DNA of 64,000 nucleotides, taken from Microscillaceae bacterium. Lineage in GTDB: Bacteria > Bacteroidota > Bacteroidia > Cytophagales > Microscillaceae. Position 1 is the first letter of the stretch; each line of letters opens with the position of its first letter. The position numbers were made by a program, and so were the translations under genes. This document shows positions 21,061-23,040 of this stretch, one piece after another. The stretch is from contig JAABSX010000002.1 in the NCBI GenBank assembly GCA_011390205.1, positions 1-64,000 on the forward strand, given 5' to 3'. Below the pieces are notes generated by a model. It had not been told where the DNA came from and ran no database searches. It worked only from the letters and a program-made list of their open reading frames with translations.

Positions 21061-21693
21061 TTAAGGCTGATTCTGCTCATAATCCCACTTAGCAGTGTTG
21101 AGCAAGTGAATCATGTCTTTTTTGATAAACTCAATCACAGGTGCAAGTGAGTCATTCTTAGTCGCTGTCCTGAAATACAAAGCACCTCTCAGAAAATGCT
21201 TGCTAGAATCACTCACATAAAACTGAAACTGACTAGGCACTTCGCCTTCTAGCTCATAAACGGCTGCTGTCTTGCCCGAAGGGGTCTTGATAAGGCTCTC
21301 TTCTACTCCCGATGCCTTAATCATGTGCTTGCTAATCAGTCTGTGAGAGTCATCTATAAACTCAGCCAAAAAAGCAGGGTCTTTTTCCAGAGATTTGTAA
21401 GTAATCTGTATATCTGCCTTGAATTTCGGATAGATAATATGAATCCAGTGAGGTTCTTTGATGCCAGATGAATCAGGGCGGATATATGCATGCTTGGAAT
21501 ATTCAAACGAATAAGGATGCGTATCTTCTAATGACTGATACTCTACCGAAGGCAAATCTATGCGGTTATAGCCCGTAGGTTTGGGTACATAATTGCCCTC
21601 TGATGAGCTACAAGCACTCAAAAAACAAACCGCCAACAAGCCTGTAAACCCGTAAATAATTACTGAATGATTTAGAAAAGAAGATAAATTCAT
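21061..21693 (-). CDS. gldD: Gliding motility lipoprotein GldD
   Basis: A 210-residue lipoprotein: N-terminal hydrophobic segment with the lipobox LSAC (cysteine near residue 28), then NYVPKPTGYNRIDLPSVEY, a phrase typical of GldD. GldD is required for gliding in Flavobacterium johnsoniae and is one of the core Gld proteins connected with type IX secretion. Length fits the family. gldE, which often sits before gldD, is not adjacent. Convergent with the ABC ATPase, four bases between stops, so some transcript overlap is likely. Confidence 0.93.
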   Translation of the reverse strand: MNLSSFLNHSVIIYGFTGLLAVCFLSACSSSEGNYVPKPTGYNRIDLPSVEYQSLEDTHPYSFEYSKHAYIRPDSSGIKEPHWIHIIYPKFKADIQITYKSLEKDPAFLAEFIDDSHRLISKHMIKASGVEESLIKTPSGKTAAVYELEGEVPSQFQFYVSDSSKHFLRGALYFRTATKNDSLAPVIEFIKKDMIHLLNTAKWDYEQNQP

Positions 21694-22114: not shown

Positions 22115-22238
22115 CTGCAAGAGAAGGACTCGAACCTTCACAGAGCGGTTAGTCTTTCACCATAGATGGTCAAAGATTTATCCACGAATCTCTACCCCCG
22201 AGACTGGAGGGCATGGCTGCCAATTTCATCACCTTGCA
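22115..22238 (-). ncRNA. tRNA-like RNA, copy A
   Basis: Minus-strand RNA of about 124 nt. The ends pair as a 7-bp acceptor stem TGCAAGG/TCTTGCA, with discriminator G and no encoded CCA. Next come U8, a 3-bp D stem (ATG/CAT) with the tRNA-Leu-like D loop AAATTGGCAGC (G18-G19 present), and near the 3' end a perfect T arm GAAGG-TTCGAGT-CCTTC. Instead of an anticodon arm there is CCCTC-CAGTCTC-GGGGG, whose loop lacks U33, then a hairpin AGATT-CGTGGATA-AATCT, a variable hairpin (ACCATCTATGGT core), and AGACT, which can pair with AGTCT in the first loop. Same body as copy B. It may be an odd type II tRNA; I cannot assign an anticodon. Confidence 0.65.
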
Positions 22239-22280
22239 ATATGTTTGAGAATCTACTTTTAGATTCCCTTTAAAAAAAAG

Positions 22281-22421
22281 CTGTGAGAGAAGGACTCGAA
22301 CCTTCACAGAGCGGTTAGTCTTTGCCTTTGTCTATGTTGCCACAGACAATAGCACGAGATTTATCCACGAATCTCCACCCCCGAGACTGGAGGGCATGGC
22401 TGCCAATTTCATCATCTCACA
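22281..22421 (-). ncRNA. tRNA-like RNA, copy B
   Basis: Minus-strand RNA of about 141 nt, 42 bp upstream (in transcription sense) of copy A. Acceptor stem TGTGAGA/TCTCACA differs from copy A but is fully paired. D arm, the CCCTC/GGGGG hairpin, CGTGGATA loop, AGACT strand and T arm are identical or nearly so. The variable hairpin is longer (TTGTCTGTG-GCAA-CATAGACAA, one G-U pair) and unrelated in sequence to that of copy A. Eight T follow the 3' end, which could terminate transcription. A -33/-7 promoter lies upstream at 22461-22492. Conserved loops with compensated stems argue for a functional RNA. Confidence 0.68.
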
Positions 22422-22460
22422 GTATTACTTTTTCAAAGAACTTTGTCTCTTTTGACATTA

Positions 22461-22492
22461 CAAAGTAAGTGAAGGAAATTCTTTTTTGCAAA
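22461..22492 (-). promoter_or_regulatory. Promoter of the tRNA-like RNA pair
   Basis: On the minus strand: TTTG (22492-22489), 20-nt spacer, TTACTTTG (22468-22461), close to the Bacteroidota TTTG/TAnnTTTG consensus. A start about 6 nt later would leave a leader of some 35 nt before copy B. This orientation supports minus-strand transcription of both RNAs. Confidence 0.6.
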
Positions 22493-22575: not shown

Positions 22576-23040
22576 ATGGATAAAAATTTAGAAATCGATA
22601 ATGTGGATTTGACCATTTTAGGGCTACTTTCTCAAGATGCCAATATGCCTTATACCGAAGTAGCTAAAAAAGCCTTCGTCTCTGATGGTACGGTACACGT
22701 CCGTATGCGCAAGCTCAAAGAGATGGGTGTGGTACAAGGGGCTCAACTTACCTTAGATTATAGCAAACTAGGCTGGGACATTGTGGCATTTTTGGGGATT
22801 TACCTTGATAAAAGTTCTCTCTATAGTGAAGTCTCCGAAGATTTGAAGCAAATCCCTGAGATTACGGGCATGCACTATACTACGGGAGGCTACAGTATTT
22901 TTGCCAAAATCGTCTGTAGAGATACCAAGCACCTCCGAAACGTACTCCACGACAAAATCCAGAAGGTCAAGGGGATTCAAAGAACAGAAACCTTTATTTC
23001 TCTAGAAGAACCCATCAATAGGACTATTCCTTTGCAGTAG
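22576..23040 (+). CDS. Lrp/AsnC-family transcriptional regulator
   Basis: A 154-residue regulator: helix-turn-helix at about residues 10-60 (VDLTILGLLSQDANMPYTEV, then VSDGTVHVRMRKLKEMGVV) and a C-terminal RAM ligand-sensing domain (about 70-145, including GMHYTTGGYSIFAKIVCRDT). Lrp/AsnC proteins form dimers and octamers and usually bind amino acids, often acting on amino-acid metabolism or on their own promoter. The closest neighbours are the tRNA-like RNAs (divergent) and an outer-membrane operon, neither an obvious target. Confidence 0.93.
   Translation: MDKNLEIDNVDLTILGLLSQDANMPYTEVAKKAFVSDGTVHVRMRKLKEMGVVQGAQLTLDYSKLGWDIVAFLGIYLDKSSLYSEVSEDLKQIPEITGMHYTTGGYSIFAKIVCRDTKHLRNVLHDKIQKVKGIQRTETFISLEEPINRTIPLQ

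Follow-up and report, generated by a model that had tools for sequence, protein, structure and literature searches.

The window analysed here, a stretch of 64,000 nucleotides from a Microscillaceae bacterium, carries two tRNA-like units on its minus strand, which raises the question of whether they are tRNAs of an odd type, remnants of tRNAs, or an RNA with a role of its own. Unit 1, the upstream copy, is located at 22281-22421 (141 nt) and unit 2, the downstream copy, at 22115-22238 (124 nt), with 42 bp in between, in agreement with the original prediction. A covariance model built from 26 sequences (R1), whose E-values are rough, scored the two units with 127.6 bits (E 2.3e-35) and 128.7 bits (E 1.1e-35), respectively. 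As had been described, the acceptor stems differ in sequence, TGTGAGA/TCTCACA in unit 1 and TGCAAGG/TCTTGCA in unit 2, and both pair; the alignment places G73 after each stem, followed by an invariant C (22280 and 22114). The 3-bp D stem with GG in its loop and the perfect T arm with UUCGAGU were likewise recovered. The gene downstream of the array (21061-21693) encodes the gliding lipoprotein GldD (PF25593).

None of the known families accounted for these units. ARAGORN, applied to the whole window, found only a tRNA-Thr and a tRNA-Ala and left both units without a call, and neither its tmRNA search nor Rfam detected a tmRNA at the locus. No Rfam 15 family exceeded its gathering score at the locus or in the full-length relatives tested, and on the window units and the full-length members tested neither ARAGORN nor the Rfam tRNA model RF00005 made a call. 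The weak score of Plastid-psbl-rps4 at the locus (21 bits; threshold 68) is explained by an opposite-strand reading of the T arm. A search of an open-access library of papers returned no description of the family. Within Rfam 15 and this literature the family is thus previously unnamed and without an entry, which fits the earlier remark that no named tRNA-mimic family of this layout was known.

The structure of the units was derived by comparison. In 133 distinct sequences 29 pairs were supported, with 97.6% of the cells paired and changes on both sides in 21 of the 29 pairs. None of 500 column shuffles was as good as the real structure, pairing fell to 51-57% when the partner was slid by 1-3 columns as a control, and an alignment that had not been fitted to the structure left the picture unchanged. 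Single-sequence folding was significant for unit 1 (z -2.9) and not for unit 2 (z -1.2), and the minimum-energy folds of both units disagree with the comparative structure. From the 5'-end the latter consists of a 7-bp acceptor strand, UG, the 3-bp D stem with GG, an anticodon-type arm of 5 bp with a 7-nt loop and a single U; then follow the variable arm, two bases, the T arm, the second acceptor strand, the invariant G73 and C. The acceptor was modelled with 7 bp in all members (99.9% paired); some copies also show C(-1)-G73 as an eighth, optional pair, which was left uncounted. The elbow bases G18 and G19 and the T-loop UUCGA are invariant, and a bulge of 1-2 nt was found in the T stem of 14 out of 141 copies.

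The central part of the molecule had been read differently before. The original prediction saw no anticodon arm; in fact CCCTC-CAGTCTC-GGGGG occupies the anticodon-arm site exactly, at 22378-22394 in unit 1 (loop 22383-22389, triplet GUC) and with identical sequence at 22195-22211 in unit 2 (loop 22200-22206). Across the family this helix is 99.4% paired and three of its pairs changed on both sides. The loop sequences CAGTCTC and CGTGGATA are indeed the same in both units, and one hairpin is wholly different between them in sequence, as had been observed. The proposed hairpin GAGATT-CGTGGATA-AATCTC had to be given up, since its 5' strand, GGAG or AGAG, instead pairs with CTCT immediately 5' of the T arm. 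This pairing is formed in 100% of the sequences, one of its pairs has 66 double-changed cells, and the AAA of the proposed hairpin is unpaired in the comparison. Similarly, the suggested AGTCT/AGACT pseudoknot did not hold, as, among 26 relatives, one of its two outer pairs can form in no more than 6 and the other in 8, and in 6 of them a C lies opposite position 36.

These pairs define a giant variable arm, located at 22308-22376 in unit 1 and 22142-22193 in unit 2. In unit 1 it consists of the 4-bp stem GGAG/CTCT, a 5' bulge, a short stem, the internal loop GAUAAA/CUAA and a variable hairpin; unit 2 has the stem AGAG/CTCT and a shorter variable hairpin. The family consensus reads GGRG/CYYC for the stem (100% paired), followed by a 5' bulge of 4-5 nt, a 3-bp stem, the internal loop GAUAAA/CUAA and the hairpin, whose closing pair alternates between C-G, G-C and U-A. 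The apical hairpin is free in sequence and length, ranging from about 10 nt (genomes G133 and G311) to more than 90 nt. Comparative evidence thus establishes a fold in which a full tRNA shell is joined by a giant variable arm that contains a conserved internal loop of its own. In the Microscilla arrays (L007, L008, L145) 113-nt and 161-nt forms are mixed, and in the longer one additional sequence is inserted ahead of the GGGATAAA motif.

Covariation contradicts the view that the units are tandem tRNA pseudogenes or a functionless remnant of a mobile element. Tandem arrays of near-identical copies are what such an origin would leave behind, and we nevertheless regard it as highly improbable in the face of compensatory changes across the order, a conserved promoter and a syntenic partner gene. 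Neither viral contigs, searched with the exact pattern, nor phage and plasmid records, searched with blastn, yielded a match. A viral, phage or plasmid origin was rejected on the basis of these records. The host tRNAs that were compared included no clear nearest relative from which the family could have originated.

The element is widely distributed. A DNA search of 57 relatives detected it in 39, often in tandem arrays, and array size ranges from a single copy to about 7. Of 193 genomes from the order of the window, which we judged from the named matches to be Cytophagales, R1 matched 142, and of the 159 good-quality ones among them 129 (E 1e-15 or better). A pattern scan of named genomes found at least 120 stretches. 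Among the matches listed were Dyadobacter, Cyclobacterium, Belliella, Aquirufa, Emticicia, Fulvivirga, Flammeovirga, Sporocytophaga, Marinoscillum, Microscilla and Siphonobacter, as well as, outside Cytophagales, Saprospiraceae (Portibacter) and Chitinophagaceae MAGs. In a wider sample of the phylum, members at 91 bits or more were present in three further families of the same class (f23, f24, f27) and in one outside the class (f66), and none was seen in the large groups f25, f26 and f36 under strict filters that may drop weak members. Family members score 91-138 bits, compared with at most 62 bits for matches of class II tRNA size; the sole exception is a short relative of 77 nt with 69 bits. 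We interpret the many matches of 83-87 nt at 55-62 bits as ordinary class II tRNAs. A 77-nt relative in one genome (G026; L181, 1338-1414) is without the giant arm, is called tRNA-Asp(atc) by ARAGORN and adjoins a dinB-like gene rather than an AsnC-like gene.

The anticodon-type loop has the consensus C/U-N-G-U-C-U-C, and its triplet is nearly always GUC. G34 is present in 137 of 141 copies (97%), U35, C36 and C38 in all 141, and G73 in 140 of 140; G2-C71 is invariant. The bacterial Asp identity set comprises G73, G34, U35, C36, C38 and G10 together with G1-C72 and G2-C71, and G1-C72 is strictly conserved among bacterial tRNA-Asp (PMC9976931). Most of this set is kept in the family, with G1-C72 and G10 missing: the acceptor begins with U1-A72 in 131 of 132 distinct rows instead of the G1-C72 of tRNA-Asp, and position 10 is A in 126 of 141 copies, not G. 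Canonical tRNA-Asp (GUC) shares the cloverleaf shell, the loop C32-N-G34-U35-C36-N-C38, G73 and G2-C71, whereas the family differs from it in U1-A72, in U37 instead of a purine, in a free position 33, in the giant variable arm and some bulged T stems, and in going undetected by ARAGORN as well as by the tRNA model of Rfam. In the tRNA-Asp(GUC) of the host itself the loop reads CUGUCAC, compared with CUGUCUC in the RNA family.

Aspartyl-tRNA synthetase (AspRS) therefore probably recognizes the RNA: the loop, G73 and G2-C71 would permit binding of the enzyme without decoding. Counting against this reading are U1-A72, A10 and the rare copies with AUC, CUC or UUC, and the long variable arm might be an obstacle to AspRS. 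The copies with the rare loop triplets UUC, CUC and AUC are located in L108 (5713-5834 and 5881-6002), L030 (1435-1550) and L027 (1433-1550). Besides its normal tRNA-Asp(GUC) (L207), the host G000 encodes a second one on contig C22 (L210, 1501-1573) with A73 and a different body.

Ordinary decoding tRNAs avoid both a free position 33 and a pyrimidine at position 37. In the family position 33 is U in 109, G in 16, A in 9 and C in 7 copies, and position 37 is U in 138 of 141. These features bear on the possibility of a specialised elongator, namely a translational tRNA-Asp of an odd class II type, for which the cloverleaf shell, the GUC triplet, G73 and the ARAGORN call on the relative without the big arm would speak. 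We consider it improbable, because U33 is not conserved, position 37 is a pyrimidine, T stems are bulged in 14 of 141 copies, the arm is giant, the host already has an ordinary tRNA-Asp(GUC), and the full-length members tested go unrecognized by both ARAGORN and the tRNA model of Rfam. The RNA is probably a real regulatory RNA and not a working translation tRNA.

The type II tRNA derivative considered earlier as an alternative comes nearer to the anatomy than a molecule with no anticodon arm. With class II tRNAs (Leu, Ser) the family shares the 3-bp D stem, the 11-nt loop as in tRNA-Leu, and a variable arm that begins one base after the anticodon stem and ends two bases before the T stem, and R1 cross-matches presumable class II tRNAs at 83-87 nt with 55-62 bits. 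In contrast to these, the variable arm of the family is several-fold longer and contains a bulge, an internal loop and a variable hairpin, and the anticodon-type loop is Asp-like.

Divergently from the array, the window encodes an AsnC/Lrp-family regulator on the plus strand (22576-23040; AsnC NF008384, E 3.1e-46; AsnC_trans_reg, HTH_AsnC). AsnC is its best curated model, yet its 157 bits lie below the NCBI cut-off of 227. An AsnC-like gene is located upstream on the opposite strand at 81 of 144 loci with gaps of 122-328 bp, and sufB/sufD often lie beyond it. Both RNA and regulator were found in 139 of the 193 genomes, neither in 31, the regulator only in 20 and the RNA only in 3; this co-occurrence corresponds to a Fisher p of 5e-19 with kinship ignored, and one deletion could remove both where they are adjacent. 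Certain genomes of families f1, f2, f10 and f11 are without both while their relatives carry both, and in G046, G047, G093 and G119 both are present and unlinked. Judged from these genomes, RNA and AsnC-type regulator go together, including cases in which they are unlinked. The AsnC-like protein probably controls the RNA.

Of the regulator-only genomes, 13 out of 20 belong to one small-genome family. Regulator identity is 38-46% at best in the tested f25 and f26 genomes, compared with 57-72% in RNA-bearing ones. In RNA-lacking genomes the model found no missed RNA next to the regulator. Near several AsnC-like genes that are without the full RNA (L256, L257, L258, L261, L265, L266, L267) the trailer described below persists, and at L261, L265 and L267 there is a hairpin of 56-64 nt resembling acceptor and T arm only, perhaps a relic. 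Such small hairpins beside RNA-less regulators fold weakly better than shuffles. No operator common to linked and unlinked arrays was found, and the signal obtained in a motif search for a palindromic operator was traced to the beginning of the asnC reading frame.

Upstream of the units lies the Bacteroidota-type promoter that had been noted before, at 22461-22492 on the minus strand: TTTG (22492-22489), 20 nt and TTACTTTG (22468-22461), a -7 box one base off consensus. Of 92 non-redundant loci, 44 are preceded by the layout TTTG-N18-23-TAnnTTTG, compared with 0.5 expected after shuffling of mononucleotides; for the -7 box by itself the count is 77 of 92, with 14.7 expected. The array carries its own promoter. 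The leader contains a boxA-like GTTCTTTGAA (22432-22441, minus strand), a putative boxA possibly acting in NusB-type antitermination; GTTCTTT occurs within 60 nt upstream at 9 of 92 loci, the window included, against 0.5 expected. The T run reported after the TGTGAGA unit is present as a T8 run directly after unit 1 (22272-22279, minus strand) and could, together with the acceptor/T-arm helix, terminate part of the transcription between the two units. Terminators consisting of a hairpin and a T stretch, judged by eye, follow many arrays. In many Cytophagales a U/G-rich trailer (TTTTGGGTTWATKTTGTTTA or TTTGGTTTTTAGTTTGTTGATGAAGTGTAA) is conserved between RNA and terminator (L039, L117, L116, L037, L010 and others), and in some loci it is preceded by a terminator and could be a separate small RNA.

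Such a trailer would suit the main rival of a charging-based role, in which the shell serves processing and stability only. Acceptor, D and T arms would then attract RNase P and RNase Z and guard the ends, charging would play no role, and the variable arm, or in some lineages the 3' trailer, would do the work by binding a protein or an mRNA. We regard this proposal as possible and rather less likely than not. Conservation and covariation extend from the shell to the internal loop and the helices on either side of it, while the terminal hairpin varies freely in sequence and length, as would be expected of such a molecule, and the trailer conserved ahead of the terminator in many Cytophagales agrees with it. 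What it leaves unexplained are the invariant U35, C36, C38 and G73 beside a free position 33.

Our main reading, to which we give somewhat less than an even chance, is that of an unnamed tRNA-mimic regulatory RNA that is seen by AspRS, controlled by the AsnC-like protein and reports Asp/Asn charging. That the RNA belongs to an unnamed tRNA-mimic family follows from the lack of an Rfam or ARAGORN match, the strongly covarying structure and the wide conservation; this part of the original prediction stands, and its central layout is replaced by the anticodon-type arm and the long variable arm. The primary transcript would be cut by RNase P and RNase Z, and CCA would then be added. The loop, G73 and G2-C71 would allow AspRS to bind and perhaps charge the RNA. 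Decoding by the ribosome would not take place, because position 33 is free, U occupies position 37 and the core bears a long structured arm. In setting the level of the RNA the AsnC-like protein would respond to Asn or Asp, as the analogy to E. coli AsnC suggests, and the RNA may report or buffer the Asp/Asn charging state. The GAUAAA/CUAA internal loop is a candidate docking site for an effector protein. In its fullest form, as a stand-alone tRNA mimic that is aspartylated and untranslating, whose charging is read via the giant variable arm, and which together with a dedicated AsnC-type partner forms an Asp/Asn sensor across Cytophagales, Chitinophagaceae, Saprospiraceae and relatives, the proposal is speculative and may well be wrong.

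The combination of Asp-like determinants with non-decoding features would also be compatible with an Asp carrier for a non-ribosomal reaction, comparable to aminoacyl-tRNAs in lipid or peptide modification, or with a Ser carrier, as the large variable region and G73 are SerRS features too. This is unlikely, since no transferase gene recurs among the annotated neighbours and the AsnC-like regulator is the sole widely shared one. The recurring neighbours in the annotated part were AsnC-like, SufB/SufD, PadR, TonB, exonuclease and DUF819 genes, with no Ro or RtcB among them.

Several known RNAs resemble the family in part. Allo-tRNA, tRNA-Sec and selC* tRNA-Cys are likewise non-canonical bacterial tRNA shapes with a long variable arm (PMC7609411). 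The family differs from them in its acceptor of 7 bp, the triplet NUC and a loop that breaks the decoding rules. The acceptor stems of these tRNAs are lengthened, and the molecules are still translational. tmRNA shares a tRNA-like domain with a long insert, whereas the family has a full anticodon-type arm and no ARAGORN or Rfam tmRNA match. The bacterial Y RNA YrlA, which is linked to the RNA repair genes rsr and rtcBA, and viral tRNA-like structures are non-coding RNAs mimicking tRNA as well; their architecture and partners are different.

To our knowledge, few regulatory RNAs of Bacteroidota are well understood, and the RNA described here is present in roughly three out of four genomes sampled from the order and yet has no Rfam entry. 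If our main reading applies, a chromosome-encoded mimic of tRNA in which most Asp identity elements are retained and the decoding rules abandoned would represent a natural test of non-translational tRNA-like signalling. The GUC/G73 pattern sharply predicts aspartylation, and the partner regulator makes the idea of tRNA-like signalling directly testable.

The host genome G000 contains another tRNA-like cluster on the minus strand of contig C73 (L222, 18998-19331), in which at least two tRNA-like halves are interrupted by inserts. No sequence kinship between this cluster and the RNA family was seen. It has a repeated GTGCCGTAGAA...TTAC.TCG segment and scored 36 and 43 bits with the Rfam tRNA model.
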